NCBI RefSeq assembly: GCF_016097555.1
Contig: NW_024533026.1
Coordinates: 1-64,000 of the forward strand
Direction: 5' to 3'
Source of the DNA: Gigantopelta aegis
Lineage: Eukaryota; Mollusca; Gastropoda; Neomphalida; Peltospiridae
Length of the DNA stretch: 64,000 nucleotides
The notes beneath the pieces were generated by a model. It did no database searches and had not been told where the DNA came from. It saw only the letters and a list, made by a program, of their open reading frames with translations. The position numbers and the translations under genes are program-made. This document shows, piece after piece, positions 5,313 to 32,650 of the stretch (positions within the stretch are counted from its first letter, which is position 1; each line of letters begins with the position of its first letter).

Positions 5313-5524
5313 TTATATATATATATATATATATACAGGATATTTCCAATGTGATTAGTAAGTAGTACACAGTCTGTCATTTCTTATGGACTTATTCTAC
5401 AAATAGTTTTTAGTAATACTACCGTAATTTAGACAATTTGTAGTTATTTCTGTTGTATACATTGACACTATACATCATAAAGATAATTAGGAATTCTTTG
5501 TATAAACTTTGACTGAAATACAAA

Positions 5525-9100: not shown

Positions 9101-9943
9101 GTAAATAAGTTGTCCTTTTATAGATGCAAATGTAAATATCCATCAATTAATCCTTGTGTAAGCTCTAACAATCATACTGTGGTTTGCATGAATAATATTT
9201 ATTTGTAAACCCTGAACACTAGTATAGGTATTAGTGTCATTACTCTAACCAAATATACTACTCTATATATGAATTTCACTAAATGTCTGAGTACAAGGGC
9301 ATTTGTTTGGAATTTCACTTTTAAACAGTCCCAAACATTGTTTTGACACATTATCTATATATATAAATACTCTAGAGAAAGTCAACATATCATACTTTAC
9401 TTATTATATCAATTTATATGAAAGGTTATTAATTTTTTGACAATGTTTCTGACAACTTTGGAATAGTTACAGCAACAATGGTTTCCTTCCAAAATGTGTG
9501 GTAATGGTCACCATGTCTAAAATCTTCTCATTTTAGTAGAAAACTGCTTTTTAGAGAAATTTGACAATTATTCATGGAAATGGCTACACAAAAGCCATAC
9601 AATTTATTTGTCATAAAAGATATTATGAACAACAAGCACCTTAAAGTTAAAGGACCTTATATAGCAGTAATAATATGACTGATTTGCAGGATGTTCAAAA
9701 TCTTCAACTAACATATATGATGAAGTAGTCATTCAAAATTAATTTTCACAGCTTAAGATATACAGAAATGGTAGGTTACATTGTTTGTGTGAATACAACA
9801 AAGTGGGCCGACCAACAATTACCAGTACTATTTTAATAGTATAACATCATTCATGCTGCCACGCCCAAAGTCAATAAGACAAGGATATATTCATGGCTTG
9901 GTTGACTCATTTCCACCCAAGATTAAATTACAACAGCTAAAAT

Positions 9944-10036
9944 ATGTTGCTCGAATTTTTGTTAGGGCTCTTGCTTTGCTTATCTTCAAGAGATACAGTA
10001 GTTGCTCAAACATGTACACATGGCTCAGTTCGTGTG
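9944..10036 (+). other. Exon 1: start codon and signal peptide of the giant aGPCR
   Basis: An ATG in a non-obvious frame opens [17 protein letters not shown], a short n-region and a Leu-rich core. It continues [13 protein letters not shown]. Cleavage would fall near V-V-A-Q. The exon is 93 nt and ends in phase 0 at the donor gtaagt, matching the phase-0 start of the next exon. A longer open frame over the same bases (9853-10053) is a shadow. Confidence 0.7.
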
Positions 10037-13000
10037 GTAAGTTACCAATGTGACAAAATGTATATGTATAGTGCTCATTATCTAGTCCTCATCTTCTTCC
10101 TATGGAGCTGTTGAAATCTGTTTGGAAAGTACATGGGGTAGTATTGTACTGATTCTGGGATAATAATGATGCTAGTGTTGTCTGTAAACAACTAGGATAC
10201 TCTCCTTATGGTAAATAATCTTTGCCTAATGTGTTTTACCAGCAGATTATTTTATATTATGCACAGGTGCAGTAGGATCTACTATAGTCTACTATTCCTC
10301 ATCAGCTATCAAACATAACATCATTGATTTAAATTTGTACTGGTAATGAGAACAGTGTACTGGACTGTCCTTATAATGGTCTCTCTCTCTACTATTGTTC
10401 TCTGAGTAAAGATGCTAACATCTTTTGTCAATGTAAGTACTAATTTCCTAGTATACTAAATTATCCTATTTTGTATAGCTATGAGTGTTGCTAATTATAG
10501 CAATTGTACTGATGGAGATGTTCGTTTAGTAGGAGGGGCATCACAATATGAAGGGAGAGTTGAAGTGTGTCTTAACAGAGCATGGGGAACAGTCTGTGCA
10601 TACAATAACTGGGACAGTCAAGAGGCTCAAGTTCTAGTTGTCTGTATTCAGATTAGTGCATTAACAATAGGTAAGCCTTACCATCTTTTAAGATGTGGTA
10701 TATTTTTATCTCATTGCAAATTTTATCATTATTATTTATTTTAAAGCAAAAGACATAACGTTGTTACAACTAAAATGATACTACTTTAAAAGTTTTTACC
10801 AAAAACATTTATTAGTCAAGCATTTAGGAAAAGTAGAAATAAGTTTTAAGTTTAGTATTGACTTCTCAGTCTGAGGAAAGAATCTAATGTAAATTAATAG
10901 CATGAGTGGTGATAGTTTCATCTATACATGACCATAAATGTGAAAAGGAAATATGTCATGTTCTCTTGTAGTTTTGAATTCAATCAAAAACTACAAAATA
11001 GACTAATTATATTATAGTCTAATTTTTAAATTATGTATGTATTTTGAGAAATTCTGGTTGTGTAATTTGGGATATCTAAGCTAGAGAGTATACAGTAATG
11101 CATTGTATGTCCTAACATTTTTGTTATGGGAATGGCACTACTGCCATTGTTGCTATTCAATATCTTTGTGTAGTTTCTGAACTTCTTTATGTCATCGCTC
11201 CTAGCTTGTAGTTGATTTAAACATTTGATTTCAGGATACTCTTATGGCTACGTTGAAGACATGGATTCTCACAAGGGACTGGACCTATTCTATTTGGATA
11301 TGTAGATTGTAATGGAACAGAAGCTAACTTGGTTGAGTGTACGCAGAACTATAACAATACTCATACTTACTGTCAGAGTCACTATTATGATGTAGCTATA
11401 GTTTGTGATAGTAAGTACTTTATGTTCTAAATATTAGTAATGTTACCTAATTGAGATAGGCATAGCTTATTCATAGCTTTCATCTAAATAAGTACTACTT
11501 GAAGTTGTGTTTAATTATAAGCCAATTCCTGTTCCTTCTTTTTTCTAATCCTACGTCTGTTACAAACCAGCAATTACACCCACCTCAATTGCAGCTACCA
11601 CAATCAGTGCATCTCTATCACCTTTAGGCAAGCTATAGTTATAGTAAAAACTATAGATAAGAATTGAAGCAGACATAGTTTAAGTGGTGTAACATACAAT
11701 GGTATTCGGTTTTCCTTCAACAGTTTCATGGTAAATTGTTTCAAAATGTTTAGGCATTGATACATGTAACAATATCTTGATGCAATATTGACTTGATCAA
11801 TTCTATATTAAAGTGATCTTAATATATAGAATTGATTAATTCAATATTGATTTTATATTGAATCAATCGCTTCAATATTGAATTGATCAGGTCAATATTA
11901 GATTGATTGATTCTATATGAATTGATTAGGTTGATATTGTATTAATGTAGTATGTATCAATGCCTAAACAATTTTGAAACAAACAGCATGCCATATTGGG
12001 CCACTTGGTATTTATTACCTTCGCTAATCAAAAATCCCTCTGTAGTGAAATACAGACATGCATCAAAGATTTGATTATAAATTTCTACTATCTTATTTAC
12101 TTTTGTCAAAGCTTTCTCTGTTCTCACAATTGATTTTAATCCTTTTAATTTATGCATCACAAACAAATGCATAAGGAATTGCATGAAACTCTTAGCTAGA
12201 CATTTAAATATAGAAAGCAGAGCAGATTAAACAGGGAAACCATTTAGAGAAGTCAAAAGTGGATGTAGGGATAAGAATGACAAAAAGTAATACAGAAACA
12301 AGGTAGGCATTATATATTGTACACACAAATCCTTATAAAATCCTTACACTACCTGATTGTTACTATATGAACTAAATATGTAGGGATTTGAGAATGTGTA
12401 AACACTAGACTGGACTACTGGAATAGAGGACTAATCTTTAAATATTTATGTAGGTGTGACTTAACTAAATAAGCATGTGATGACTACATTGTAGTTTCTT
12501 TGCAAGACTGCGTAGGCTAGGCTACTGGTAGCTTAAGTTCATCTTGTAACTCTAGTTAAAGCTTACATTATTACAGCTAGAAACTTTTTTGTTTCTCAAT
12601 ACCTTTCTTATCAAATATACACATGAATTCTGACCTTTTCTGTAGGATTGTCATACACAATTAATGATACAAGCTCATAAAGTTTGTAGTTTTGTTAAGA
12701 CTTGCAGGACACACATATGTATTTACAAATCCATGAAATAACCCTTGTATATTGTATATTATTATGATTGTGAAAGATCTTACCCTAAGTGGTCTGATGT
12801 TGATAACATTAAAAGTTTAACAGTTATATGTTGACAATGTTAACTCCTAACTAAAATGTCAAAATTAGCAAAAAGAATGCATGCAATATTTTAATGAATT
12901 TTAATAAATTCACAAATCAAAAAAAAATGATTGTTATTGTTATTATTATTATTATTATTATTATTTATTATTATTATTATCATTACACTATTGTAGTACT

Positions 13001-16000
13001 TAATATGTAGAAATCATTTCACAGAAACTTGTATTGCCAACTTATACAATCAACTATTTAGCCTATTACTTGATTTTAAATGTATAATTATTGTGTAAAA
13101 GGTACAAATAAATTTATAACCTCTATTCACATAAAAATCAAAGGACACAATGATAACTTAATTTTGAATTGTGAATTCACTATGAACACAGCATATCTTG
13201 ATTTTAATACCAACATTCACCATTATTTCTTTTTACTTTATTAATTTTACTTTTTATATTATTTTATATATTTTGTACAACCATATTAAAGGTTAGTCCA
13301 ATCCAGTAATCTAGTCTAGATTTTAAAGACTTCTGGATTTTGGTATTTGTGTACAATTTAATATTGCATTGTCATTCTTACATCCACTTTACACTGGATT
13401 TTAAAGTGTTCTTATTACTTGTTAATATAATATTCATCAAATCCTTTAAAAGACATAAATGCATGTTCTACTAATACTCATAGACATGTGATCCTAATGC
13501 TAACTGTATCAACACTGCTGGCAACACTGCATGTACTTGTAACAGTGGATATGAAGGAAATGGAGAGTTGTGTACAGGTTTGTGTTTTATTAGACAAATA
13601 CATGAACATTAATAACATAATTAAAAGAAATAATGAGTAATTTTTAATGCAATATTAATTCCATCTTTAGACATAAATGAATGTTCTACTAATACTCATA
13701 ACTGTGATAGTAATGCTACCTGTATCAACACTGCTGGAAATTTTACTTGTACTTGTAACACTGGATATGAAGGAAATGGAGAGTTTTGTACAGGTTTGTA
13801 GTTTTACTATATAAAAAAAATTAATAACAAATTGATAAAATATATTAATAAAATATCAATATAAATTTTCTTTAGACATTGATGAATGCTTAACAAATAC
13901 TCATAACTGTGATATTATTGCTACCTGTATCAACACTGCTGGAAGTTTCACATGTACTGAATATGAAGGAAGTGGACAGTCATCTACAGGTTTTTCATTT
14001 ATTAAAGTAGACAATTCTTTGTCAATACTGCATATACTGATCATTAATCTTAAAAACTAAGGTAGACTAGAGTTAATCTCATTCATTTCTAGATGTAGAT
14101 GAATGTTCTACTAATACTCATAACTGTGATGCTAATGCTACATGTACCAAAACTGCCAGTAATTTTACATGTACATGTAACACTGGATATGAAGGAAATG
14201 GCCAGTCATGTACAGGTTTGTAGTTTATCATATATATACAAGCTCACTTATATGAAGTGAAGAAAACTATTGTCCATTTATTATCATAATATGAATTATC
14301 TTTAGACATAGATGAATGTTCAACTAATACTCATAACTGTGATAGTAATGCTACCTGTATCAACACTGCTGGCAATTTTACTTGTACTTGTAACACTGGA
14401 TATGAAGGAAATGGAGAGTTCATGTACAGGTTTGTAGTTTATTAGTAATATACATGAACATTAATAACAAAATCAAGAGAAATAATGAGTAATTTTAAAT
14501 ATAATATTAATTCCATTCTTTAGACATAGATGAATGCTTAACTAATACTCATAACTGTGATAGTAATGCTACCTGTATCAACACTGCTGGCAATTTCACA
14601 TGTACTTGTAACACTGGATATGAAGGAAATGGAGAGTCATGTACAGGTTTGTTTTTTATTAGTAATATACATGAACATTAATAACAAAATCAAGAGAAAT
14701 AATGAGTAATTTTAAATATATTATTAATTCCATTCTTTAGACATAGATGAATGTTTAACTAATACTCATAACTGTGATAGTAATGCTACCTGTATCAACA
14801 CTGCTGGAAATTTCACATGTACTTGTAACACTGGATATGAAGGAAATGGAGAGTTTTGTACAGGTTTGTAGTTTATTAGAAATATGCATTAACATTAATA
14901 ACAAAATTAAGAGAAATAATGAACAATTTTTAATATAATATTACTTCAATTCTTTAGACATAGATGAATGTTTAACTAATACTCATAACTGTGATAGTAA
15001 TGCTACCTGTATCAACACTGCTGGCAATTTTACATGTACTTGTAACACTGGATATGAAGGAAATGGAGAGTCATGTACAGGTTTGTAGTTTATTAGTAAT
15101 ATACTTTAACATTAATAACAAAATCAAGAGAAATAATGAGTAATTTTTAATATAATATTAATTCCAATTCTTTAGACATAGATGAATGCTTAACTAATAC
15201 TCATAACTGTGATAGTAATGCTACCTGTATCAACACTGCTGGAAATTTTACATGTACTTGTAACACTGGATATGAAGGAAATGGAGAGTTTTGTACAGGT
15301 TTGTAGTTTATTAGAAATATGATCATTAATGTTAATAACAAAATTAACAGAAATAATGAACAATTTTTAATATAATATTACTTCAATTCTTTAGACATAG
15401 ATGAATGTTTAACTAATACTCATAACTGTGATAGTAATGCTACCTGTATCAACACTGCTGGCAATTTTACATGTACTTGTAACACTGGATATGAAGGAAA
15501 TGGAGAGTCATGTACAGGTTTGTAGTTTATTAGTAATATACATTAACATTAATAACAAAATCAAGAGAAATAATGAGTAATTTTAAATATAATATTAATT
15601 CAATTCTTTAGACATAGACGAATGCTTAACTAATACTCATAACTGTGATAGTAATGCTACCTGTATCAACACTGCTGGAAATTTTACATGTACTTGTAAC
15701 ACTGGATATGAAGGAAATGGAGAGTCATGTACAGGTTTGTAGTTTATTAGTAATATACATGATGTTAATAACAAAATCAAGAGAAATAATGAGTAATTTT
15801 AAATATAATATTACTTCCATTCTTTAGACATAGATGAATGCTTAACTAATACTCATAACTGTGATAGTAATGCTACCTGTATCAACACTGCTGGCAATTT
15901 TACTTGTACTTGTAACACTGGATATGAAGGAAATGGAGAGTCATGTACAGGTTTGTAGTTTATTAGTAATATACATGAACATTAATAACAAAATCAAGAG

Positions 16001-19000
16001 AAATAATGAGTAATTTTAAATATAATATTAATTCCATTCTTTAGACATAGACGAATGCTTAACTAATACTCATAACTGTGATAGTAATGCTACCTGTATC
16101 AACACTGCTGGAAATTTCACATGTACTTGTAACACTGGATATGAAGGAAATGGAGAGTCATGTACAGGTTTGTAGTTTATTAGCAATATACATTAACATT
16201 AATAACAAAATTAAGAGAAATAATGAGTAATTTTTAATATAATATTAATTCCATTCTTTAGACATAGATGAATGCTTAACTAATACTCATAACTGTGATA
16301 GTAATGCTACCTGTATCAACACTGCTGGCAATTTCACATGTACTTGTAACACTGGATATGAAGGAAATGGAGAGTTTTGTACAGGTTTGTAGTTTATTAG
16401 TAATATACATGAACATTAATAGCAAAATCAAGAGAAATAATGAGTAATTTTAAATATAATATTAATTCCATTTTTTAGACATAGACGAATGCTTAACTAA
16501 TACTCATAACTGTGATAGTAATGCTACCTGTATCAACACTGCTGGCAATTTCACATGTACTTGTAACACTGGATATGAAGGAAATGGAGAGTTGTGTACA
16601 GGTTTGTAGTTTATTAGTAATATACATAACATTAATAACAAAATCAAGAGAAATAATGAGTAATTTTTAATATAATATTAATTCCATTCTTTAGACATAG
16701 ACGAATGCTTAACTAATACTCATAACTGTGATAGTAATGCTACCTGTATCAACACTGCTGGAAATTTCACATGTACTTGTAACACTGGATATGAAGGAAA
16801 TGGAGAGTCATGTACAGGTTTGTAGTTTATTAGTAATATTTAATGTTAATAAGCAAAATTAACAGAAATAATGAACAATTTTTAATATAATATTACTTCA
16901 ATTCTTTAGACATAGATGAATGTTTAACTAATACTCATAACTGTGATAGTAATGCTACCTGTATCAACACTGCTGGCAATTTTACATGTACTTGTAACAC
17001 TGGATATGAAGGAAATGGAGAGTCATGTACAGGTTTGTAGTTTATTAGTAATATAGATAAAATTAATAGCAAAATTAAGAGAAATAATGAACAATTTTTA
17101 ATATAATATTACTTCCATTCTTTAGACATAGATGAATGTTTAACTAATACTCATAACTGTGATAGTAATGCTACCTGTATCAACACTGCTGGAAATTTTA
17201 CATGTACTTGTAACACTGGATATGAAGGAAATGGAGAGTCATGTACAGGTTTGTAGTTTATTAGTAATATACATTAACATTAATAACAAAATCAAGAGAA
17301 ATAATGAGTAATTTTTAATATAATATTAATTCAATTCTTTAGACATAGATGAATGTTTAACTAATACTCATAACTGTGATAGTAATGCTACCTGTATCAA
17401 CACTGCTGGCAATTTTACATGTACTTGTAACACTGGATATGAAGGAAATGGAGAGTCATGTACAGGTTTGTAGTTTATTAGTAATATACATGAACATTAA
17501 TAACAAAATCAAGAGAAATAATGAGTAATTTTAAATATAATATTAATTCCATTTTTTAGACATAGATGAATGCTTAACTAATACTCATAACTGTGATAGT
17601 AATGCTACCTGTATCAACACTGCTGGAAATTTCACTTGTACTTGTAACACTGGATATGAAGGAAATGGAGATTTTTGTACAGGTTTGTAGTTTATTAGTA
17701 ATATGCATTAATGTTAATACCAAAATTAACAGAAATAATGAACAATTTTTAATATAATATTACTTCAATTCTTTAGACATAGATGAATGTTTAACTAATA
17801 CTCATAACTGTGATAGTAATGCTACCTGTATCAACACTGCTGGCAATTTCACATGTACTTGTAACACTGGATATGAAGGAAATGGAGAGTCATGTACAGG
17901 TTTGTAGTTTATTAGTAATATACATGAACATTAATAACAAAATCAAGAGAAATAATGAGTAATTTAAATATAATATTAATTCCATTCTTTAGACATAGAC
18001 GAATGCTTAACTAATACTCATAACTGTGATAGTAATGCTACCTGTATCAACACTGCTGGAAATTTTACATGTACTTGTAACACTGGATATGAAGGAAATG
18101 GAGAGTTTTGTACAGGTTTGTAGTTTATTAGTAATATACATTAACATTAATATACAAAATTAAGAGAAATAATGAACAATTTTTAATATAATATTAATTT
18201 CAATTCTTTAGACATAGATGAATGTTTAACTAATACTCATAACTGTGATAGTAATGCTACCTGTATCAACACTGCTGGAAATTTCACATGTACTTGTAAC
18301 ACTGGATATGAAGGAAATGGAGAGTCATGTACAGGTTTGTAGTTTATTAGTAATATACATGAACATTAATAACAAAATCAAGAGAAATAATGATTAATTT
18401 TAAATATAATATTAATTCCATTTTTTAGACATAGATGAATGTTTAACTAATACTCATAACTGTGATAGTAATGCTACCTGTATCAACACTGCTGGAAATT
18501 TCACATGTACTTGTAACACTGGATATGAAGGAAATGGAGAGTCATGTACAGGTTTGTAGTTTATTAGAAATATACTTTAATGTTAATAGCAAAATCAACA
18601 GAAATAATGAACAATTTTTAATATAATATTAATTCAATTCTTTAGACATAGATGAATGCTTAACTAATACTCATAACTGTGATAGTAATGCTACCTGTAT
18701 CAACACTGCTGGAAATTTCACATGTACTTGTAACACTGGATATGAAGGAAATGGAGAGTCATGTACAGGTTTGTAGTTTATTAGTAATATACATTAACAT
18801 TAATAACAAAATCAAGAGAAATAATGAACAATTTTTAATATAATATTAATTCCATTTTTTAGACATAGATGAATGTTTAACTAATACTCATAACTGTGAT
18901 AGTAATGCTACCTGTATCAACACTGCTGGAAATTTTACATGTACTTGTAACACTGGATATGAAGGAAATGGAGAGTCATGTACAGGTTTGTAGTTTATTA

Positions 19001-22000
19001 GTAATATACATGAATGTTAATAACAAAATTAAGAGAAATAATGAGTAATTTTTAATATAATATTAATTCAATTCTTTAGACATAGATGAATGCTTAACTA
19101 ATACTCATAACTGTGATAGTAATGCTACCTGTATCAACACTGCTGGAAATTTTACATGTACTTGTAACACTGGATATGAAGGAAATGGAGAGTTTTGTAC
19201 AGGTTTGTAGTTTATTAGTAATATACATTAACATTAATAACAAAATCAAGAGAAATAATGAACAATTTTTAATATAATATTAATTCAATTCTTTAGACAT
19301 AGATGAATGTTTAACTAATACTCATAACTGTGATAGTAATGCTACCTGTATCAACACTGCTGGCAATTTCACATGTACTTGTAACACTGGATATGAAGGA
19401 AATGGAGAGTCATGTACAGGTTTGTAGTTTATTAGTAATATACATGAACATTAATAGCAAAATCAAGAGAAATAATGAGTAATTTTAAATATAATATTAA
19501 TTCCATTCTTTAGACATAGATGAATGCTTAACTAATACTCATAACTGTGATAGTAATGCTACCTGTATCAACACTGCTGGAAATTTCACATGTACTTGTA
19601 ACACTGGATATGAAGGAAATGGAGAGTTTGTACAGGTTTGTAGTTTATTAGATCATTAATATACATTAACATTAATAACAAAATCAACAGAAATAATGAA
19701 CAATTTTTAATATAATATTACTTCAATTCTTTAGACATAGATGAATGTTTAACTAATACTCATAACTGTGATAGTAATGCTACCTGTATCAACACTGCTG
19801 GAAATTTCACATGTACTTGTAACACTGGATATGAAGGAAATGGAGAGTTTTGTACAGGTTTGTAGTTTATTAGTAATATACATGAACATTAATAACAAAA
19901 TCAAGAGAAATAATGAAGTAATTTTAATATAATATTACTTCAATTTTTTAGACATAGATGAATGCTTAACTAATACTCATAACTGTGATAGTAATGCTAC
20001 CTGTATCAACACTGCTGGCAATTTCACATGTACTTGTAACACTGGATATGAAGGAAATGGAGAGTCATGTACAGGTTTGTAGTTTATTAGTAATATACAT
20101 GAACATTAATAACAAAATCAAGAGAAATAATGAGTAATTTTAAATATAATATTAATTCCATTCTTTAGACATAGATGAATGCTTAACTAATACTCATAAC
20201 TGTGATAGTAATGCTACCTGTATCAACACTGCTGGAAATTTTACATGTACTTGTAACACTGGATATGAAGGAAATGGAGATTTCATGTACAGGTTTGTAG
20301 TTTATTAGTAATATACATGAATGTTAATAACAAAATCAAGAGAAATAATGAACAATTTTTAATATAATATTAATTCCATTCTTTAGACATAGATGAATGC
20401 TTAACTAATACTCATAACTGTGATAGTAATGCTACCTGTATCAACACTGCTGGCAATTTCACATGTACTTGTAACACTGGATATGAAGGAAATGGAGAGT
20501 CATGTACAGGTTTGTAGTTTATTAGTAATATACATTAACATTAATAACAAAATTAAGAGAAATAATAAGTAAAGTTTTAATATAATATTAATTCCATTCT
20601 TTAGACATAGATGAATGCTTAACTAATACTCATAACTGTGATAGTAATGCTACCTGTATCAACACTGCTGGCAATTTTACATGTACTTGTAACACTGGAT
20701 ATGAAGGAAATGGAGAGTCATGTACAGGTTTGTAGTTTATTAGAAATATAATTAATGTTAATACAAAATCAAGAGAAATAATGAACAATTTTTAATATAA
20801 TATTAATTCCATTCTTTAGACATAGATGAATGCTTAACTAATACTCATAACTGTGATAGTAATGCTACCTGTATCAACACTGCTGGTAATTTCACATGTA
20901 CTTGTAACACTGGATATGAAGGAAATGGAGAGTCATGTACAGGTTTGTAGTTTATTAGTAATATACATGAACATTAATAACAAAATCAAGAGAAATAATG
21001 AGTAATTTTAAATATAATATTAATTCCATTCTTTAGACATAGACGAATGCTTAACTAATACTCATAACTGTGATAGTAATGCTACCTGTATCAACACTGC
21101 TGGTAATTTCACATGTACTTGTAACACTGGATATGAAGGAAATGGAGAGTTCATGTACAGGTTTGTAGTTTATTAGTAATATACATGAACATTAATAACA
21201 AAATTAAGAGAAATAATGAGTAATTTTTAATATAATATTAATTCCATTCTTTAGACATAGATGAATGTTTAACTAATACTCATAACTGTGATAGTAATGC
21301 TACCTGTATCAACACTGCTGGTAATTTCACATGTACTTGTAACACTGGATATGAAGGAAATGGAGAGTCATGTACAGGTTTGTAGTTTATTAGTAATATA
21401 CAACATTAATCAAGAGAAATAATTAGTAATTTTAAATATAATATTAATTCCATTCTTTAGACATAGATGAATGCTTAACTAATACTCATAACTGTGATAG
21501 TAATGCTACCTGTATCAACACTGCTGGAAATTTCACATGTACTTGTAACACTGGATATGAAGGAAATGGAGAGTTTTGTACAGGTTTGTAGTTTATTAGT
21601 AATATACATTAACATTAATAACAAAATCAAGATCTCAAAATGAACAATTTTTAATATAATATTAATTCCATTTTTTAGACATAGATGAATGTTAACTAAT
21701 ACTCATAACTGTGATAGTAATGCTACCTGTATCAACACTGCTGGAAATTTTACATGTACTTGTAACACTGGATATGAAGGAAATGGCCAGTTATGTACAG
21801 GTTTGTAGTTTATTAGAAATATACATTAGCATTAATAACAAAATCAAGAGAAATAATGAGTAAATTTTTAATATAATATATCAAGAGAAATAATGAGTAT
21901 TTTAAATATATTAATTCCATTCTTTAGACATAGATGAATGTTTAACTAATACTCATAACTGTGATAGTAATGCTACCTGTATCAACACTGCTGGAAATTT

Positions 22001-25000
22001 CACATGTACTTGTAACACTGGATATGAAGGAAATGGAGAGTCATGTACAGGTTTGTAGTTTATTAGTAATATACATGAACATTAATAACAAAATTAAGAG
22101 AAATAATGAGTAATTTTAAATATAATATTAATTCCATTCTTTAGACATAGATGAATGCTTAACTAATACTCATAACTGTGATAGTAATGCTACCTGTATC
22201 AACACTGCTGGCAATTTCACATGTACTTGTAACACTGGATATGAAGGAAATGGAGAGTCATGTACAGGTTTGTAGTTTATTAGTAATATACATGAACATT
22301 AATAACAAAATTAAGAGAAATAATGAAGTAATTTTAAATATAATATTAATTCCATTCTTTAGACATAGATGAATGTTTAACTAATACTCATAACTGTGAT
22401 AGTAATGCTACCTGTATCAACACTGCTGGCAATTTCACATGTACTTGTAACACTGGATATGAAGGAAATGGAGAGTCATGTACAGGTTTGTAGTTTATTA
22501 GTAATATACATGAACATTAATAACAAAATCAAGAGAAATAATGAGTAATTTTTAATATAATATTAATTCCATTCTTTAGACATAGATGAATGCTTAACTA
22601 ATACTCATAACTGTGATAGTAATGCTACCTGTATCAACACTGCTGGCAATTTCACATGTACTTGTAACACTGGATATGAAGGAAATGGAGAGTCATGTAC
22701 AGGTTTGTAGTTTATTAGTAATATACATGAACATTAATAACAAAATCAAGAGAAATAATGAGTAATTTTAAATATAATATTAATTCCATTCTTTAGACAT
22801 AGATGAATGCTTAACTAATACTCATAACTGTGATAGTAATGCTACCTGTATCAACACTGCTGGCAATTTCACATGTACTTGTAACACTGGATATGAAGGA
22901 AATGGAGAGTCATGTACAGGTTTGTAGTTTATTAGTAATATACATGAACATTAATAACAAAATCAAGAGAAATAATGAGTAATTTTAAATATAATATTAA
23001 TTCCATTCTTTAGACATAGATGAATGCTTAACTAATACTCATAACTGTGATAGTTATGCTACCTGTATCAACACTGCTGGAAGTTTCACATGTACTGAAT
23101 ATGACTGGAAGTGGACAGTCATCTACAGGTTTTTCATTTATTAAATTAGACAAATTCTTTGTCAATATTGCATATACTGATCATTAATCATTATATACAA
23201 AACGTTCAAGGTAAAGTAATGAACAATTTTAATATTCATTCCATTCTTTAGACATAGATGAATGTTAACTAATACTCATAACTGTGATAGTAATGCTACC
23301 TGTATCAACACTGCTGGTAATTTCACATGTACTTGTAACACTGGATATGAAGGAAATGGAGAGTCATGTACAGGTTTGTAGTTTATTAGTAATATACATG
23401 AACATTAATAACAAAATCAAGAGAAATAATGGTTAATTTTAAATATAATATTAATTCATTTTTTTAGACATAGATGAATGCTTAACTAATACTCATAACT
23501 GTGATAGTAATGCTACCTGTATCAACACTGCTGGCAATTTCACATGTACTTGTAACACTGGATATGAAGGAAATGGAGAGTTGTGTACAGGTTTGTAGTT
23601 TATTAGTAATATACATGAACATTAATAACAAAATCAAGAGAAATAATGAGTAATTTTAAATATAATATTAATTCCATTTTTTAGACATAGATGAATGTTT
23701 AACTAATACTCATAACTGTGATAGTAATGCTACCTGTATCAACACTGCTGGTAATTTCACATGTACTTGTAACACTGGATATGAAGGAAATGGAGAGTCA
23801 TGTACAGGTTTGTAGTTTATTAGTAATATACAATGTTAATATACAAAATAATAAGAGAAATAATGGGTAATTTTTAATATAATATTAATTCAATTCTTTA
23901 GACATAGATGAATGCTTAACTAATACTCATAACTGTGATAGTAATGCTACCTGTATCAACACTGCTGGCAATTTCACATGTACTTGTAACACTGGATATG
24001 AAGGAAATGGAGAGTCATGTACAGGTTTGTAGTTTATTAGTAATATACATGAACATTAATAACAAAATTAAGAGAAATAATCAAAGTAATTTTAAATATA
24101 ATATTAATTCCATTTTTTAGACATAGATGAATGCTTAACTAATACTCATAACTGTGATAGTAATGCTACCTGTATCAACACTGCTGGCAATTTTACATGT
24201 ACTTGTAACACTGGATATGAAGGAAATGGAGAGTCATGTACAGGTTTGTAGTTTATTAGTAATATACATGAATGTTAATAGCAAAATCAAGAGAAATAAT
24301 GAGTAATTTTAAATATAATATTAATTCCATTCTTTAGACATAGATGAATGCTTAACTAATACTCATAACTGTGATAGTAATGCTACCTGTATCAACACTG
24401 CTGGCAATTTCACATGTACTTGTAACACTGGATATGAAGGAAATGGAGAGTCATGTACAGGTTTGTAGCTTATTAGTATAATATACATGAACATTAATAA
24501 CAAAATCAAGAGAAATAATGAGTAATTAATAAAATATAATATTAATTCCATTTTTTAGACATAGATGAATGCTTAACTAATACTCATAACTGTGATAGTA
24601 ATGCTACCTGTATCAACACTGCTGGCAATTTCACATGTACTTGTAACACTGGATATGAAGGAAATGGAGAGTCATGTACAGGTTTGTAGCTTATTAGTAA
24701 TATACATGAACATTAATAACAAAATCAAGAGAAATAATGAGTAATTTTAAATATAATATTAATTCCATTTTTTTAGACATAGATGAATGCTTAACTAATA
24801 CTCATAACTGTGATAGTAATGCTACCTGTATCAACACTGCTGGTAATTTCACATGTACTTGTAACACTGGATATGAAGGAAATGGAGAGTCATGTACAGG
24901 TTTGTAGTTTATTAGTAATATACATGAACATTAATAACAAAATCAAGAGAAATAATGAGTAATTTTAAATATAATATTAATTCCATTCTTTAGACATAGA

Positions 25001-28000
25001 TGAATGCTTAACTAATACTCATAACTGTGATAGTAATGCTACCTGTATCAACACTGCTGGCAATTTCACATGTACTTGTAACACTGGATATGAAGGAAAT
25101 GGAGAGTTGTGTACAGGTTTGTAGTTTATTAGTAATATACATACAACATTAATAACAAAATCAAGAGAAATAATGGGTAATTTTAAATATAATATTAATT
25201 CCATTCTTTAGACATAGATGAATGTTTAACTAATACTCATAACTGTGATAGTAATGCTACCTGTATCAACACTGCTGGCAATTTCACATGTACTTGTAAC
25301 ACTGGATATGAAGGAAATGGAGAGTCATGTACAGGTTTGTAGTTTATTAGTAATATACATGAACATTAATAAAAAATCAAGAGAAATAATGAGTAATTTT
25401 AAATATAATATTAATTCCATTTTTTAGACATAGACGAATGCTTAACTAATACTCATAACTGTGATAGTAATGCTACCTGTATCAACACTGCTGGCAATTT
25501 CACATGTACTTGTAACACTGGATATGAAGGAAATGGAGAGTCATGTACAGGTTTGTAGCTTATTAGTAATATACATGAACATTATAACAAAATCAAGAGA
25601 AATAATGAGTATTTTAAATATAATATTAAATCCATTTTTTAGACATAGACGAATGCTTAACTAATACTCATAACTGTGATAGTAATGCTACCTGTATCAA
25701 CACTGCTGGTAATTTCACATGTACTTGTAACACTGGATATGAAGGAGATATAAGTCATGTACAGGTTTGTAGTTTATTAGTAATATACATGAACATTTTA
25801 ACGAAATCAAGAGAAATAATTAGTAATTTTAAATATAATATTAATTCCATTTTTTAGACATAGATGAATGCTTAACTAATACTCATAACTGTGATAGTAA
25901 TGCTACCTGTATCAACACTGCTGGCAATTTTCACATGTACTTGTAACACTGGATATGAAGGAAATGGAGAATCGTGTAAAGGTTTGTAGTTTATTAGAAA
26001 TATACATATTATTAATAGCAAAATCAAGAGAAATAATAGACAATTTTATAATATAATATTAATTCAATTATATAGACATAGATGAATGCTTAACTAATAC
26101 TCATAACTGTGATAGTAATGCTACCTGTATCAACACTGCTGGCAATTTCACATGTACTTGTAACACTGGATATGAAGGAAATGGACAATCATGTGCAGGT
26201 TTGTGGTTTGTTATTTAGATGAAATTAATAATGCAGATATAAATAAAGAAAAATAAAGTACATGTCGATGTAGGGGGGGCTAATATCATTATTTTATAAT
26301 GTGTGTAAACAAGATAGTTCCTATGACATTTTGACCACACCTACATAATAGCACTTGTACAAACACTGAATGTTAGTTAAAATGAATTTATAGTTTTAAA
26401 TGGTTGCCTTGTTTGGTTAACTACTTTTCATTTTTCAAAAAATGTGTTATTTTTTTTGTACTTAAAACATTTATGTCAGCAGCATGTTCTTTGACAGCCC
26501 TAAGTAGTGTTAAATAATACAGTATACTTTCTTCTTCTTTTTAATATCTTATGTTTGTTACAAAGCAGCAACTGTAACCAGCTCAATTGTACTTATCACA
26601 ACCAGTACTATTTCTTCTTCTCCATCACCTTCAGGTAAGTCAGCACACACAATAGTGATATCATTCTACACTTTACAATGATATAGTTATTGTACTTTGT
26701 GCAAGTGAGGTAGATTCTGTGTATAACCTTTTGTGGGACATAACGTATGTTGGAAATATTATTACCAAATATTGTCCACCTAGAAGATCAGGTAAATTGT
26801 GTTCTGTATTTAGCATTGAGTAGATATATCTACAATGGTTGTTATGTTTATGTATAGGTAATATCAGTAGACAATGTACTAGTAATGGACTATGGTCTGA
26901 GATCAATCAAAGTGCTTGCCCTTTAGTGCAATTGATAGAAGATTTTGATAAAGTAATGTTGAACACAGCATGCAAAAGATCATGTTTAAAAATGTATCTA
27001 TTGTTTACAATACCACTTCATTATAAATGATATTTCTTTTCTTTAGTTGAAAAAAATAACTTCTAATAACACAAACATTACATCACAAGAACAGAATGAT
27101 GTTATCAACAACATTACTCAAAATATTGTTAATGTCACACAAACAGTATTTAACAACATCAGATGTCATCACTATTAACAAAATTGTAGATACATCAATT
27201 GTCATTCTTACATCTAACATTGGTGATACTAGTGTTACTAATCCCTTCCTTGTATCTGTAAGCATTAATGTTGTTTAAGTACAAAGCCTTGTTAATTAAA
27301 TATGACTTCTTTATTGCTCCAGGAAATTCTTGACATTTTTAATAACCTACTAGATGACCAGCCATACTGATGAATTGTCACAACTTAACGTTTGTAACAT
27401 GAAACAAACTACATTACATATTTTAGTGTGTATTTTCCAAATACAGGATGATTTTGGAGGGGAGAAGCTAATGAGCAACATTGAGGATTATGGCAAATAT
27501 GCAGGAAATTCTTAGTTTACTATGATAATATTACTAATGATACATTTGCAGCTGAAAAAAGAAAAATTTAGGTGATTTTTGTCAATATGCATCACTAATA
27601 TTATGTTTCATTGTACCATAGTATTTCAGGCAGATATTCAGGACAAATATCGTCTTAGTGATGTCGTTTTTTCCTCTTACTTCCAAGTTATCCGTTTATA
27701 CTGTTAATGATAGTTTATCTCATGTAAGAATACCATATCAACATCTTGAAGATCGCCAAACAGAAGGTTTGTTTTAATATTCCTAATATTTGTCTTTTTT
27801 TATCAATTTCATTTTAAGACAACAAAGTTGCTGTAATAAATGCATTAATTAACAACATTGCTGAAGTTCTCCCAACAAGTTTAACAAAGTCAGCATTATT
27901 ACTCTTTTCTGATTGGCTTGATTCAATTTCTGTAGTTTTACTGAGAATGTTCCAGTGACACAAGTTATTACAACTCAAGTTATCTCTAGTAACACTTCTA

Positions 28001-30006
28001 GCCAAATTCCTGGTATTAAATTTCACCACTGTACCAGTATGTAACATATAATTTTGCTAGCTCTATATATAGCTACTTCAGTATAGTTACTGTAAATGTT
28101 TAGTCAAAAATTTGTTCTTTACTTATAACAAATGATTTTGTTAGCCGTATAGCATGCTAATGGAATATATTTACAATAATGTTTAATCAAACTTGTTCTT
28201 TACTTATCACTTAGTTTCAAAATGCATCAAATCCACGATGTGCATTTTGGACTTTTCAACGCAAGTTTTCCATCTAGCTATTATATTATCATTATATATA
28301 TCTGTTATATTTAATAGGGCCAATAGTAATGGTACCTGGTCTACAGATGGTATTGAGTTAGTGTCTATCAAATATAAAAATAACAAAGAAAGGGATTCAG
28401 TATAACCTAATATGTAATAGCAGTCACATAACTCCCTTTGTTGTATTAGTGGATTTACATGGAGTGGAGGTAGACATACCTTATATCATATGTGCAAGTA
28501 CATGATATTTCTGTACCTTAATTCATTCTATAGATTCCAAAAGATGAGTACATTGCTCTAGAGGTAGTGACATATGTTGGTCTCACTGTTTCGAGTATTT
28601 GTTTTGTATCTTAACTATCATTGTTTTACTAACTCTCAAGTAAATGACAGTATAACAATTTATAGGTTCGTCATATATATCTACATTTTACAGAAAAGAA
28701 CTCATTCAAAATGTTCAGTATTTAGTGCATTTTAATTTGAGCATAGCTCTGCTTGGTGGCTATGTCATTTTTATATTTGGTATTGATGATAAAGTTATTG
28801 ATTTAACTAGCTCAAAGGTACATACAAAATTTGTTCTTTATTTATATTCACATGGTATTTTTCAGATTGGTTGTGGATTCATAGCAGCTCTTCTTCATTA
28901 CTTCTTTTTAGCTGCTTTCTGTTGGATGTTATGTGAAGGCATCATGTTGTTTTTACAACTAGTTATTGTATTCTCTTCAATTTCTAAAAGATGGTATCTT
29001 TACCTGCTCATTGGATGGGGTAATAAACATTTTGATACGATAGTATTATTTCTTGTATATAGGTCTACCAATTATTCCTGTGGGTGTATCAGTGAGTATA
29101 CTTTATGAAAATTATGGTGTGCTTGGGAAATAGTAAGTTAGTATAAAAGTATTAATTATTTTATAATATTGTCCACCATGTAGTTGTTGGATTGATTTCA
29201 GTAGACGGGCTGTTATATGGGCTTTTCTAGGACCAGCATTGTTGATTATTTTGGTAATTAAATAGATAGTTAGATAAATATTAAGAGAGAGACCAACAGA
29301 TGAAAAACTGGACTATGTAACAGTTATTAGATAGATGGATACTGTGATGTGTATTATTACAAATTATTATTAAGGTGTATTATTACAAATTGCACATAGA
29401 TCAATATTGTACTGCTGATGTTAGCTATTCCAGCAATGGTACGCTATTATAAAAGACGACAAAAACACAGTCGAATAAAAGACAAGAAAAAAAGGAGATA
29501 TTATCAGGTGTTGAAGCATTGTTGACTTTGTTAATTTCATTTACCTTTATTGTTAGAAAGAAGAAAAAACTATCATTGGGTCACTAATATTGCTTCCTTT
29601 ATTGGGAATAACCTGGCCACTTGGTCTGTTTGTAATCAATCGTCATGCTACAGTGTTTGCTTGGTTGTTCACTATCTTTTCAACTTTTCAGTAATATAAT
29701 GATGCATTTGGAAGTTTTATAACTTTTAACTTTAGGGATGTTTCATTTTCATATTCAATGTGATAAGAATTGAGAAGGTATATAACACAGATTCTTGTAA
29801 TTTGATATATTATATATTTTTATAGATTAAGAAATGCCTTGTTTCAAATGTGTTGTCCAAAGCTATCAAAGGTATAAACTATGATAATGATTATTATTGT
29901 GGATTGTATATTGCTGTAGAAATCAAGACAGCAGGAAGCATTAATCTAGGCAGAACAGAAAGAATCATAGCCAACACATGTCTAACTTTGACAATTTGGT
30001 TCATTA
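9944..30006 (+). CDS. Giant adhesion GPCR: signal peptide, 2 SRCR, 59 cbEGF, HRM-like, GAIN/GPS, 7TM
   Basis: One exon chain fits a single protein of about 3,300-3,500 residues. A signal peptide (9944-10036) is followed by SRCR 1 (10086-10432), SRCR 2 (10479-11410), a Ser/Thr linker (11571-11627) and 59 cbEGF exons (13453-26198). Next come a second linker (26566-26634), a hormone-receptor-like Cys module (26687-26952), the GAIN region (27047-28036), GPS (28215-28469) and seven helices (28534-29800). The tail ends S-N-F-D-N-L-V-H at TAA (30004-30006). Most ectodomain exons end in phase 1, so all junctions from SRCR 2 into the EGF array and out again agree. Family-B2 receptors sense adhesion or mechanical cues and are autoproteolysed at the GPS. 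One-base indels break about ten EGF exons, SRCR 1 and parts of the GAIN and 7TM regions. Whether all exons are spliced into one transcript is inferred, not seen. Confidence 0.8.
10086..10432 (+). other. SRCR domain 1 (two exons)
   Basis: Exon 10086-10210 encodes [14 protein letters not shown], then [14 protein letters not shown]. Exon 10267-10432 encodes the second half with N-S-V-L-D-C-P-Y-N and A-N-I-F-C-Q. This is the Cys and W-G order of scavenger receptor Cys-rich domains, an extracellular ligand-binding fold. Two T bases appear to be missing after W-G-S-I and one T is extra before the C-T-G-N-E segment. All three sites are T runs, and the SRCR frame resumes after each. Confidence 0.75.
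10479..11410 (+). other. SRCR domain 2 (two exons)
   Basis: Exon 10479-10670 encodes [34 protein letters not shown] and V-V-C-I-Q. Exon 11235-11410 encodes [21 protein letters not shown] and D-V-A-I-V-C-D. This is a canonical SRCR domain divided by a 564-bp intron. The frame slips once between about 11260 and 11285. Confidence 0.8.
11571..11627 (+). other. Ser/Thr-rich linker exon before the EGF array
   Basis: A 57-nt, phase 1-1 exon that encodes a Thr/Ser/Ala-rich spacer ([15 protein letters not shown]). Its donor reads gcaagc, so it would be a GC-AG intron. It is clearly related in bases to the linker exon that follows the array (26566-26634), including the polypyrimidine and gttacaaa stretch upstream. 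Confidence 0.6.
11736..11982. mobile_element. Inverted-repeat (MITE-like or foldback) element
   Basis: The left end (11736-11765) and right end (11952-11982) are near-perfect reverse complements over about 30 bp, with the core tgtttaggcattgatacat. The middle is a series of AATTGAT/TCAATATTGA blocks that also pair with each other, so the whole 247 bp can fold on itself. No open frame and no clear target-site duplication were found. Confidence 0.6.
12930..12983. repeat. (TTA)n microsatellite
   Basis: About 16 trinucleotide units with one interruption, inside the long intron upstream of the EGF array. Confidence 0.9.
13453..26198 (+). repeat. Tandem array of 59 cbEGF exons, period about 217 bp
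   Basis: Each unit is a 123-nt phase 1-1 exon plus an intron of about 94 nt. Each exon encodes one six-Cys calcium-binding EGF of 41 residues: D-I-D-E-C, H-N-C, S-N-A-T-C, then [14 protein letters not shown] and C-T. My hand count of exon starts is 13453, 13671, 13876, 14093, 14306, 14524, 14741, 14958, 15176, 15395, 15612, 15828, 16045, 16262, 16479, 16695, 16910, 17126, 17343, 17560, 17777, 17993, 18212, 18429, 18646, 18863, 19080, 19297, 19514, 19735, 19952, 20169, 20387, 20605, 20820, 21037, 21255, 21461, 21679, 21928, 22145, 22363, 22580, 22797, 23014, 23252, 23468, 23685, 23902, 24121, 24338, 24559, 24777, 24994, 25212, 25428, 25643, 25858 and 26076. Lengths other than 123 nt occur at exons 1, 3, 5, 29, 32, 36, 39, 45, 46, 57 and 58. 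The D-x-D-E Ca site and the C-x-N-x4-F-x-C-x-C hydroxylation consensus recur in nearly all. Introns are as alike as exons. Confidence 0.95.
13876..13989 (+). other. Variant EGF exon 3 lacking two cysteines
   Basis: This 114-nt in-frame exon reads [16 protein letters not shown] at its end. It lacks Cys 5 (a 9-nt deletion) and Cys 6 (TGT to TCT). Its following intron is also unlike the array consensus. The same variant reappears at exon 45 (23014-23128), where it is one base longer and out of frame. Confidence 0.75.
26199..26565 (+). other. Intron after the last EGF exon
   Basis: The intron starts with an array-like donor but then diverges completely from the 94-nt array introns, marking the end of the amplified region. 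No coding signal was seen. Confidence 0.5.
26566..26634 (+). other. Ser/Thr-rich linker exon after the EGF array
   Basis: A 69-nt phase 1-1 exon that encodes [20 protein letters not shown]. It is a paralogue of the linker at 11571-11627, with a normal gtaagt donor. It is a probable O-glycosylated spacer between the EGF stalk and the membrane-proximal modules. Confidence 0.65.
26687..26952 (+). other. Hormone-receptor-motif-like (HRM) Cys module (two exons)
   Basis: Exon 26687-26791 encodes [14 protein letters not shown] and K-Y-C-P-P. Exon 26858-26952 encodes [13 protein letters not shown] and S-A-C-P. The order C / W / G / C-P / R-x-C-x-x-x-G-x-W / C matches HRM modules, which often precede GAIN domains in adhesion GPCRs. 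Phases agree with the neighbouring exons. The call rests on pattern alone. Confidence 0.55.
27047..28036 (+). other. GAIN-domain region of the aGPCR (several exons)
   Basis: Exons near 27047-27257, 27323-27390, 27448-27570, 27631-27764 and 27819-28036 encode helix-rich then strand-rich segments typical of GAIN subdomains A and B. Readable pieces are [44 protein letters not shown] and [12 protein letters not shown]. The position just before a recognisable GPS supports the call. Several one-base frame slips occur, and exon borders in the middle are approximate. Confidence 0.6.
28215..28469 (+). other. GPS autoproteolysis motif (two exons)
   Basis: Exon 28215-28264 encodes [12 protein letters not shown], the first GPS half with C and W. 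Exon 28318-28469 encodes [10 protein letters not shown] and later [14 protein letters not shown]. The H-I-T tripeptide stands where H-L-T or H-L-S is cleaved in the family, between I and T. Two of the four usual Cys are replaced (Ile after D-G and Ser before S-H-I-T). One frame slip lies between the halves. Confidence 0.75.
28534..29800 (+). other. Seven-transmembrane domain, adhesion (B2) GPCR type
   Basis: Consecutive small exons encode the helices. TM1 is 28534-28639 ([13 protein letters not shown]). TM2 is 28694-28817 ([11 protein letters not shown]). TM3 is 28866-29019 ([15 protein letters not shown], the hallmark B2 segment). TM4 is 29063-29132. TM5 is 29184-29253 ([11 protein letters not shown]) with 29400-29507. 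TM6 and TM7 are about 29557-29690 ([14 protein letters not shown]) and about 29736-29780 (F-I-F-I-F-N-V-I-R). The conserved Cys at the start of TM3 (I-G-C-G-F) is present. A tail exon (about 29826 onward) and a last exon ending at 30006 follow. Confidence 0.85.
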
Positions 30007-32650
30007 ACGTACCATTACTTTAATTACTGTTACCAACTTAATTACTTGCCATTGTTATAGAAAATTTTGTATCTTGTTTGTTTTTTGATAAAAATTATTC
30101 ACTAGCACATTATTATCATAGCTATAGGTTAAGTGATACTATTTAGTATATACAGGTGTATAGTCTTATCAAAGCTATTGTAAAAAACAAAATATAGCTG
30201 CTATTTCACTTTAATTTTCATAAAACATTTTTTCTACAATGTAATGCACATTATAGTTATGATAGCTTTTAAATATCATAATTAGGACAGCTGTGACATG
30301 CCCATGATAATTATACTGCATGCAGTAGGTTTGAATGGGTATAATTGATAGTGGATCTAATACATACACAATACTATAGCAAACCTTATCAGCTTCTCCT
30401 CCACAACTCACTCTATACATGGAATTCAAATATTCCATAAACTCATATCATAACATCATATGAATTCATATTTACTTTATCATACATGTTATATGATGTA
30501 CTCCAATTTCTGCAAATACTATATAATTAATGTACACATGTATTGGCTGTGAACTCATTTTTAATTAAGATCCTTAAAATCAAACAACTTTAATGAATAT
30601 TTGGATACTTTCGATTATCTTTTGCTGGACTACTTTATATATGTAGTCATTATTAGCTCAGTTTCATAAAGAATTTGTTTTTGGCTTTAAATCTGAACAA
30701 TGGTCAAAATATAAACCCATAAATAGTAAAACATTATAAGTATCATACTTTAAAATGACTTATTGCAAGTAAATCAAATGATTACATTTTCATTGTGATG
30801 ATCACTGAAGGATATATGACATGTGGTGATCAGAAGTCAAAGACTACAAAAATTCACAAAGTTACACAGAATCTATTTAAAAAAAATTCAAATAACAATG
30901 AAAGTTAGAGCAGTGATTATCCCTACATCTATCAAATGACCAACAACCAGTGGAAATATTTGTGTAATGTCATTGGAAACTTCACCAAATTTCGTTATAT
31001 TCTTCAGTCATTCAGCATTAACTTCATCAATGTTATTTTTAATGTATCTGAATTTTCAGTTGGATTAATCCATTGGAAGTTGCATGACTTGAGCAATGTA
31101 ACTAATTTGTGTATGTAAATTGTGAAATTGTAGCCACTTTTACTGTGTCATTTGATGACATAATTACTTCTTTTTATGTTTATATATAAATACATTTATA
31201 ATGGTTGTATCTTAGTAAAATAACAAATAATTTAGTAATATTTACCCATCTAATTGCTTATTTATCTATTAATCCATACATCCATATGTATATCACTCTT
31301 ATTAAGTAATAATCCATATATTAATTAAATCATGAATACATTCATCTACTCAGCAATTTTTGTTAATGTCATTTACAATATATTGTGTATATGGATGTGT
31401 TTTTATTGTTGTGGTTAATGTTGCTTTTGTTATGATTGCAATTCATATTGTAGACATATTATTACTTATTAATAGCATATGCTCAATTGTGTACTCAGAC
31501 CACATGTCAACTCTCTCACTTTTCTAATGTATTTTGTGTTTCTTGTAGTTATCATAGACATAACATTGTTACCAAGCTAAAGATATTATATATACAACTG
31601 CTTCTTTTGATCAAGAATATGAGTTGGAATTAGACATACTTTAAGTAATAATGAATGTGCAACAACAACACACAATTGTGTGCATGACTTAACACTGCTT
31701 GCTCTAGCACATACTAATCAATTGCATATATAGAACATTGGTGTTGAAAGAACCAATCATTAACATTTTACAGTGGTGCACATATTACTATTAAAGATGA
31801 TATATTATTTGACACTGATGTTACTCATGTCTTCACACTTTTCCATTTATGGTATGGTTTTAATATACTAGGTGTACCTTGTCATTGATTAGTGTTAATG
31901 ATTACAAATGCTACAATAAATATCGTGTATAAATGTCTTTTTAATAACCAAAATGGATCAAACACAGCCAAAATAAATTATTAATATATATAAACTAAAA
32001 CTTACATGATGAAATAAGTGATAAATAACATAATCTAAGTGATAAGATGAAGTAACCATAACCTACATGATGTAATAGATAAAATATTGCTCCTACAGGA
32101 AAAGCTCAGGTAAGAACTGAAAAATGATGAAGAATATATGATCTACTTGACATGTCTGTCAATGAACAAAAAAAGGAATAATTACAGTAAGTAAAAATGC
32201 ATTTTTAAAAAAGATATACCTATAAATAAACAGAACACACTAATAATGTAATAGGTAATAAACCCCAACCTCTTACAATTATAGGTGTCCTGATTTACAT
32301 TAAGGGACCATCTTCTGTCAAAACATTTGTGACCTGATTTGTGATATGTTTTATAATAACAGTGGTTTCTTTTTATAAATCAAGTGTTTCCAGAAGTGAT
32401 TCTTTTATTGCATAAGAGGTCACATTTATTTGTTATAATAATTATTCAAATGTCTGTATGTGATAATATATAAGCTATAATATGTAGGCTGCTGTTGCTA
32501 TTGAACAAAGGTACAATGCTAACTGATCATGTACATATATAACACTAACATTGTGATGATGTTAAAACTTACTTTCATTTTCATGGTTTGTTCACACTAA
32601 AGTACAATCAATTATCATAATAATACACAGTCTTTATAATTTGTTACGAC
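30007..32650. repeat. Intergenic block duplicated at 38.97-41.5 kb
   Basis: From about 30012 the sequence runs collinear, with small indels, with about 38965-41501 and continues into the type II transporter start. A 92-codon hydrophobic frame is intact at 40156-40434 but broken in this copy (31332-31560), which argues against it being a selected gene. No other gene is recognised here. Confidence 0.75.
32304..32430. repeat. Small foldback repeat (copies also near 41142-41270 and 48249-48345)
   Basis: The stretch begins aagggaccat and later carries an inverted counterpart near cagtggtttctttt. The segment catttgtgacctgatttgtg also has an inverted partner, gaggtcacaaa, seen best at 41248-41266. 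Similar sequence recurs near 41142 and 48249. This is a MITE-like pattern, though two of the three copies lie inside larger duplications. Confidence 0.4.

Follow-up and report, generated by a model that had tools for sequence, protein, structure and literature searches.

A predicted demosponge adhesion GPCR with two SRCR domains and a stalk of about 59 EGF exons on a small contig of the Gigantopelta aegis assembly

A small contig in the genome assembly of the snail Gigantopelta aegis (NW_024533026.1 of GCF_016097555.1) raises the question of whether a long run of exons, leading from SRCR domains through dozens of calcium-binding EGF (cbEGF) repeats to seven transmembrane helices (7TM), belongs to one receptor gene, and from which animal that gene came. 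We analysed positions 1 to 64,000 of this contig (hereafter the window), in which the exons lie between positions 9,944 and 30,006. An earlier note, made from the sequence letters alone, had predicted here an adhesion G-protein-coupled receptor (GPCR) with two SRCR domains and a stalk of 59 cbEGF repeats. The overall explanation that we consider likely is a single demosponge adhesion-GPCR gene of ~3,350 residues, whose stalk has grown by amplification of an EGF exon. The features of this gene are as follows.

9,944–10,036, + strand: exon 1 with signal peptide, ending in phase 0; the sole signal-peptide-like ATG within 9,700–10,040
10,086–10,432, + strand: SRCR domain 1, exons 10,086–10,210 and 10,267–10,432, three single-base frame changes (Pfam SRCR 4e-17, spliced)
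10,479–11,410, + strand: SRCR domain 2, exons 10,479–10,670 and 11,235–11,410, one frame change in its second exon (Pfam SRCR 7.4e-19)
11,571–11,627, + strand: Ser/Thr-rich linker exon A, 57 nt, phase 1-1, with a GC-AG donor (AG|GCAAGC)
13,453–26,198, + strand: 59 tandem cbEGF exons of 123 nt, phase 1-1, with similar introns of ~94 nt; 48 of 59 clean
13,876–13,989, + strand: EGF unit 3, an in-frame variant of 38 residues with four cysteines, without C5 and C6
23,014–23,128, + strand: EGF unit 45, a second copy of the variant type, out of frame by one base as assembled
26,569–26,634, + strand: Ser/Thr-rich linker exon B, 66 nt, phase 1-1
26,714–26,951, + strand: HRM (hormone receptor) domain, exon 26,714–26,791 and an exon from 26,858, end approximate (Pfam HRM 5.3e-7)
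27,047–28,200, + strand: candidate GAIN-region exons with frame changes, boundaries approximate
28,215–28,470, + strand: GPS motif (CAFW...) and the tethered-agonist segment downstream of it, end approximate (Pfam GPS 2.1e-5)
28,534–29,880, + strand: seven-helix exons, single-frame core 28,656–29,030, boundaries approximate (Pfam 7tm_2 1.9e-47)
29,915–30,005, + strand: short cytoplasmic tail (presumed), gene end approximate; from 30,010 the sequence is part of a duplicated block

Pfam was run on the spliced pieces with X placed at frame changes. The SRCR pieces scored 62.8 and 68.4 bits against a cut-off of 26.1, which places them in the SRCR superfamily, and a sequence of three EGF units matched EGF_CA (1.7e-33) and EGF_3 (2.6e-37). 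The HRM match (30.4 bits, cut-off 26.2) puts the receptor among the HRM-bearing adhesion GPCRs, and a GPS (25.4 bits, cut-off 22.5) precedes the first helix. The 7tm_2 match and the grouping with sponge adhesion GPCRs in a phylogenetic tree identify the helices as adhesion-type (class B2). With these matches in order and 59 EGF exon starts, the adhesion GPCR of the note, carrying two SRCR domains on a cbEGF stalk of 59 units and ending in GPS-7TM, was borne out and is of sponge type, and its signal peptide, SRCR, cbEGF, GPS and 7TM exons all lie in order on the + strand, as it had said. Its account of the stalk was right about the cbEGF array but missed the HRM domain and two paralogous Ser/Thr-rich linkers.

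Exon phases were checked exon by exon from exon 1 up to the start of HRM, with the GAIN and 7TM exons outside that check, and over this stretch they are compatible when the SRCR frame changes are allowed for. Together with the phase 1-1 structure of the array and linker exons, this compatibility favours one gene, and we regard a single adhesion-GPCR gene with two SRCR domains, ~59 cbEGF repeats, HRM, GPS and 7TM as highly probable. Linker exons A and B are paralogous: the exons with 30 nt upstream align with a score of 79, while shuffled sequences gave a mean of 25 in one set of 200 and no more than 45 in another. The EGF module therefore seems to be flanked on either side by a copy of the same linker. 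For the whole flanking introns of the linkers the score was 132, with shuffles at a mean of 106 (standard deviation 8.6, maximum 138) and other stretches of the window at 119 or less; similarity across the wider flanks is ambiguous, and clear paralogy is limited to the exon plus 30 nt upstream.

The tandem EGF array is far beyond chance. Tandem Repeats Finder gave a period of 217 over 13,451–26,213 (58.6 copies, score 19,638), and 59 EGF exon starts were found. Each unit combines a 123-nt exon with an intron of ~94 nt, which measures exactly 94 in 31 of the 59 units (the end of the last intron was set by hand). The exons run from phase 1 to phase 1, so the frame is kept at any copy number. The donors, located via the string GGTTT, read GTTTGT in 57 units and GTTTTT in two, and the acceptors read TAG in 58 of 58 cases. 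Forty-eight exons are clean, being exactly 123 nt long, open and with six cysteines; the 11 unclean units are 1, 3, 5, 29, 32, 36, 39, 45, 46, 57, and 58. Counted in the first frame, the EGF_CA pattern occurs in 54 of the 59 units and the Asx-hydroxylation pattern in 52, which corresponds to the calcium-binding EGF consensus; the O-fucose consensus is present in 56 units and two or more N-glycosylation sequons in 53. Between the sixth cysteine and the next DIDEC lies a single residue, as in rod-forming fibrillin pairs. The best solved relatives of the module by sequence were NELL2, NEL, ADGRE5, uromodulin, NELL1, and Notch; fibrillin ranked lower. Units 3 and 45 have a different intron in common, and in both the final two cysteines are missing. 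Their mutual identity is 86%, against ~72% to the core, and their type looks like an older EGF sub-type kept twice.

Variation among the units shows coding-type constraint on the array, past or present. The 46 clean units after unit 5 contain 84 minor alleles. Third codon positions account for 71 of them and first positions for 2, and the other 11 fall at a single second-position site that gives Ser, Phe or Leu just ahead of the last cysteine. Per-site variation in these 46 units was 5.2% in introns, 3.8% at third positions, 0.6% at second and 0.1% at first positions. The Nei-Gojobori proportions of synonymous (pS) and nonsynonymous (pN) differences over 48 units were 0.097 and 0.0115, giving a pN/pS of ~0.12, a purely descriptive ratio with no test attached, as the units are non-independent and several of them have polymorphisms in common. 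Relative to the consensus, the exons of 53 units (5–58 minus 45) carried 8 indels (1.23/kb) and the introns of these units 43 (8.63/kb). Mean pairwise identity over 51 units (6–57 minus 45) was 97.5% in exons and 91.1% in introns. Seven of the eight exon indels are single bases at or beside polymorphic sites (exon offsets 13 and 110–114) and the eighth lies at offset 70; this clustering is what would be expected from a consensus mixed from different units.

The relations between units also bear on how the stalk grew. Units 6–57 have a mean identity of 93.8%, which does not drop with distance (93.2 to 94.6% at twenty offsets up to 40), and no higher-order repeat was seen, identity being flat at offsets 1–15, 20, 25, 30, 35, and 40. 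The edge units have diverged, units 1–4 more so than units 57–58. Some whole units are identical (31 = 43 = 44 and 35 = 53; four identical pairs, with unit 59 outside the comparison). Flat identity, diverged edges and identical units together form the pattern expected from unequal exchange and conversion of the whole exon-plus-intron unit. We suggest that the stalk was lengthened by unequal exchange of one 217-bp unit of exon and intron, in which each 123-nt phase 1-1 exon would add one cbEGF domain with the frame intact, so that length would change one module at a time.

As for the animal from which the gene came, the contig is unplaced and 163,235 bases long, not chromosome-scale, in an assembly of 1.149 Gb and 5,216 contigs, and the GC content of the window is 30.5%. 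The COX1 in the assembly is 98% identical to that of G. aegis and, to the same degree, to that of Dracogyra subfusca. The genome paper describes a G. aegis genome of 1.15 Gb with 15 pseudo-chromosomes and a GC content of 37.22%, assembled from PacBio reads with Canu correction at corMinCoverage=0, wtdbg2 with --rescue-low-cov-edges, and Racon and Pilon polishing; bacterial contamination was removed, and the methods section names no other filter (PMC7895826). We built a 7TM tree of 46 rows, comprising 40 selected proteins, five of eight fetched snail loci and the window. The window falls inside a 23-row clade (support 97/100) together with 17 Demospongiae rows and five rows without a taxon name, and the five snail chromosomal rows and a calcareous sponge row on a long branch lie outside it. 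The best 35 database matches of the window receptor came from sponges in 30 cases and had no taxon name in five. A second small contig of the assembly, C1624, likewise matches sponges best, whereas contigs C743 and C612 do not. The window is most likely low-coverage sponge contamination in the snail assembly, which would also account for the indels. Since the contamination would derive from low-coverage long reads, the count of 59 given in the earlier note, which agrees with the 59 exon starts in the assembly, is provisional, an assembly-level count from a PacBio-built contig.

Two side observations concern other contigs of the same assembly. C743 and C612 are small, low in GC (30–32%) and carry 7tm_2 matches that are split and, on C743, mostly interrupted by stops; among the proteins compared, the best matches were from a tunicate, a sea star and a nematode for C743 and from a brachiopod and a snail for C612. 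In addition, a full-length COX1 match, with six TGA codons read as Trp, lies within the chromosome-scale contig C6 (42,729,340–42,730,680), and would be either an insertion of mitochondrial DNA or a contig of the mitochondrial genome that was misplaced.

Several points weigh against one intact gene as described above. An intron of 1.8 kb precedes the EGF array, and linker A has a GC donor. The GAIN model PF16489 was unmatched at E up to 1 in a region that carries frame changes. The GPS has the cleavage tripeptide H-I-T with Pro next (HIT-P); Pro directly after the GPS Thr is unusual, and to judge from this motif, autoproteolysis is uncertain. The assembled locus lacks an uninterrupted open reading frame (ORF): the compatible splice phases of the earlier note hold from exon 1 to the HRM start, but the frame changes had been overlooked. 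The descriptions in PMC7895826 further imply that the array was probably assembled by wtdbg2 from low-coverage reads. Signal-peptide-like starts decide little. Such ORFs number 215 on the + strand of the window, a background of 3.36 per kb, so the ATG at 9,944 is weak evidence by itself. No signal-peptide-like start was found in scans of 26,199–26,567 and 26,634–26,736, and 11,640–13,452 held only two nested poly-Ile ORFs (12,894/12,927); for 10,040–11,640 and the introns of the array, the strand-wide count was the only scan. The 1.8 kb between linker A and EGF 1, the GC donor and the frequent signal-peptide-like ATGs, the poly-Ile ORF included, would fit two genes, namely a secreted or truncated SRCR protein at 9.9–11.6 kb and an EGF-HRM-GAIN-7TM receptor with an overlooked first exon, and SRCR-only products were reported for 53.66% of 1,747 SRCR genes from 29 species (PMC10855680). 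However, phases match across SRCR, the array and the HRM start, paralogous linkers flank the array on both sides, and the related predicted JGI protein P0028 joins SRCR with HRM-GPS-7TM in a single chain, which makes two genes unlikely. A decaying pseudogene with genuine frame changes would fit the 11 unclean units among the 59 and the frame changes in non-EGF exons, which by manual reading number at least eight (four single-base changes in the SRCR exons and at least four more in the GAIN/7TM exons). Against decay, indels are sevenfold rarer in exons than in introns, seven of the eight exon indels fit a mixed consensus, pN/pS is 0.12, and the assembly settings recorded in PMC7895826 were those for low coverage. 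Similar damage affects neighbouring genes: with one query and within the window only, the match is spread over two frames in five POT-type transporter copies (at 42, 46, 50, 54, and 57 kb) and stays in a single frame in three, one being the query; two further short matches are uninformative. The pseudogene was set aside as the principal explanation on the exon/intron indel contrast and the damage in neighbouring genes, and we consider it rather improbable, although recent decay may have followed earlier constraint.

The two remaining alternatives concern the source of the DNA and the length of the array. A gene native to the snail would agree with the contig belonging to a snail assembly. However, the demosponge clade leaves out all five snail rows, the best 35 matches consist of 30 from sponges and five without a taxon name, GC is 30.5% against 37.2%, the contig is not chromosome-scale, and another small contig, C1624, is sponge-like too. 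A native gene was rejected on the 7TM tree, GC content and the small contig, and has in our estimate a very small chance of being correct. It is possible, though we lean towards the opposite, that assembly has collapsed or expanded a genuine array, the true number being far from 59, which would be compatible with a demosponge gene grown by exon amplification. The use of --rescue-low-cov-edges in wtdbg2 and of corMinCoverage=0 in correction points this way, as do identical whole units, even the adjacent 43 and 44; on the other side, 53 of the 58 compared units are matched exactly by no other, and only within units 40–44 do three or more unit pairs above 98% follow one another.

We then compared the predicted demosponge receptor with known receptors and arrays. 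The protein searches covered lengths of ~560–1,780 aa in one case and 1,166–3,710 aa in the other (scoring limited to the 7,978 candidates that shared most words), and none of the 87 and 75 listed matches combined SRCR, EGF and 7tm_2 among its listed Pfam domains. A literature search, with supplementary files outside it and papers represented by portions of their text, recognised no paper on a receptor of SRCR-EGF-7TM type with an extended run of EGF modules, and the words SRCR and sponge are absent from the first 300,000 characters of PMC13197933. Adhesion GPCRs of Amphimedon queenslandica that carry several SRCR domains were reported in 2014 (PMC4302439), and a domain-figure legend for sponge adhesion GPCRs in that paper includes EGF. 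Its Aq712029 and Aq715659 resemble the window receptor as sponge adhesion GPCRs with multiple SRCR domains, but the text portions compared do not mention an EGF array for them. In PMC10855680, EGF_CA is the commonest partner domain of A. queenslandica SRCR genes, and for the sea star A. planci 7tm_2 is listed as one of the leading partners.

Within the same clade, P0028 (1,428 aa) has SRCR upstream of HRM-GPS-7tm_2, as in the window receptor, but carries an Ig domain and no EGF family match, and its sequence starts within its SRCR. The sister of the window 7TM (support 99/98) is another JGI protein, P0002 (582 aa), with 51% identity over 278 columns, in which only GPS and 7tm_2 were matched. 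The Dysidea avara proteins P0017 and P0026 are, like the window receptor, sponge adhesion GPCRs with EGF domains (EGF-HRM-GPS-7TM). One pattern gives two EGF-like matches in each, and a looser pattern raises this to at most five in P0017 and four in P0026. Adhesion GPCRs with a cbEGF stalk also occur on other branches of the tree, without an SRCR match: P0100 (ENA), P0095 (Asterias amurensis), and P0109 (Misgurnus ADGRE1) have 18, 11, and 9 EGF_CA stretches by Pfam and 17, 15, and 13 modules by cysteine pattern, compared with 59 in the window. The Biomphalaria match P0060 has 14 modules by cysteine pattern. Membership of the ADGRE group was rejected, as the window lies in the sponge clade and the ADGRE rows P0047 and P0109 elsewhere. 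The "handful" of EGF repeats that the earlier note ascribed to adhesion GPCRs was an understatement, given ~17–18 modules in one match. The unusual combination that it claimed holds for the number, 59 being far above 17–18, but SRCR on sponge adhesion GPCRs had already been published (PMC4302439).

Arrays of similar length occur in the fibrillin-type proteins P0097 (fibrillin-2-like) and P0096, with 48 and 50 modules by one pattern and 53 and 53 by another (56 for the window model by the latter); unlike the window receptor, they have no 7tm_2 among their listed domains. A study of Tetrahymena genes with 90-bp leucine-rich repeat exons (PMC6564038) describes tandem exons of exact length and uniform intron phase, attributed to unequal crossing over, possibly with retrotransposition. 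These arrays are a parallel for exon-array growth, but in a ciliate, in phase 2 and with 90-bp exons.

Other sequence in the window was also noted. Positions 11,743–11,974, in the intron that follows linker A, form a foldback element resembling a miniature inverted-repeat transposable element, with 32-nt arms that are 84% complementary and 168 nt apart and with further inner inverted repeats. Tandem diverged transporter copies occupy 3,800–8,000 and 36,000–64,000, and their PTR2/POT match stays below threshold (PF00854, 24.6 bits against a cut-off of 27). Local duplications pair 2,603–4,269 with 4,277–5,968 (93%), 30,376–33,001 with 39,169–41,843 (87%), and 41,406–43,988 with 45,607–48,200 (81%). 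Upstream of the receptor gene, an open stretch at 8,984–9,208 contains a strongly hydrophobic, transmembrane-like segment.

The locus appears to encode an adhesion GPCR with a stalk grown by exon-unit amplification, and its mode of working is something that we infer. The single residue between the sixth cysteine and the next DIDEC suggests a rod-like stalk. A cbEGF domain is 2.5–3 nm long, and Ca2+ at each DIDEC junction with one linker residue would make a stiff rod of roughly 150–180 nm. Such a stalk would keep the SRCR heads well away from the membrane as binding tips for a microbial, matrix or neighbouring-cell ligand, with the Ser/Thr linkers and the units without the last cysteines as its flexible points. 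Under load or on binding, the GAIN/GPS fragment would be pulled and, if HIT-P is cut, the tethered agonist (T/PFVVLV...) would become exposed to the 7TM, a step that operates in other adhesion GPCRs. The long-reach recognition and tension sensing put forward in the earlier note are conjectural; we give long-reach, force-linked recognition about an even chance of being the receptor's use. More speculatively, and with small expectation of being right, the array may be a coding variable-number tandem repeat, in which receptor reach varies by whole modules between individuals without a frame break. Exchange would keep the frame, since each 217-bp unit resembles its neighbours and is symmetric in phase; the SRCR display height or glycan density would then be genotype-specific and could serve as a length-coded filter for self and non-self or for symbionts, acting through an adhesion GPCR.

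The finding suggests that small contigs of the snail assembly hold sponge DNA. If the count holds, the stalk would be the longest cbEGF run on a seven-helix receptor among the matches, about three times the richest (17–18), and its 59 repeats would lie within or slightly above the range of the fibrillin-type matches (48–53). It would then offer a natural experiment on ectodomain length and adhesion-GPCR activation. The locus would also provide an animal example of a receptor stalk extended one exon at a time, in which the introns retain a mean similarity of 91%, and of an immune-type head (SRCR) atop a long stalk in a sponge.

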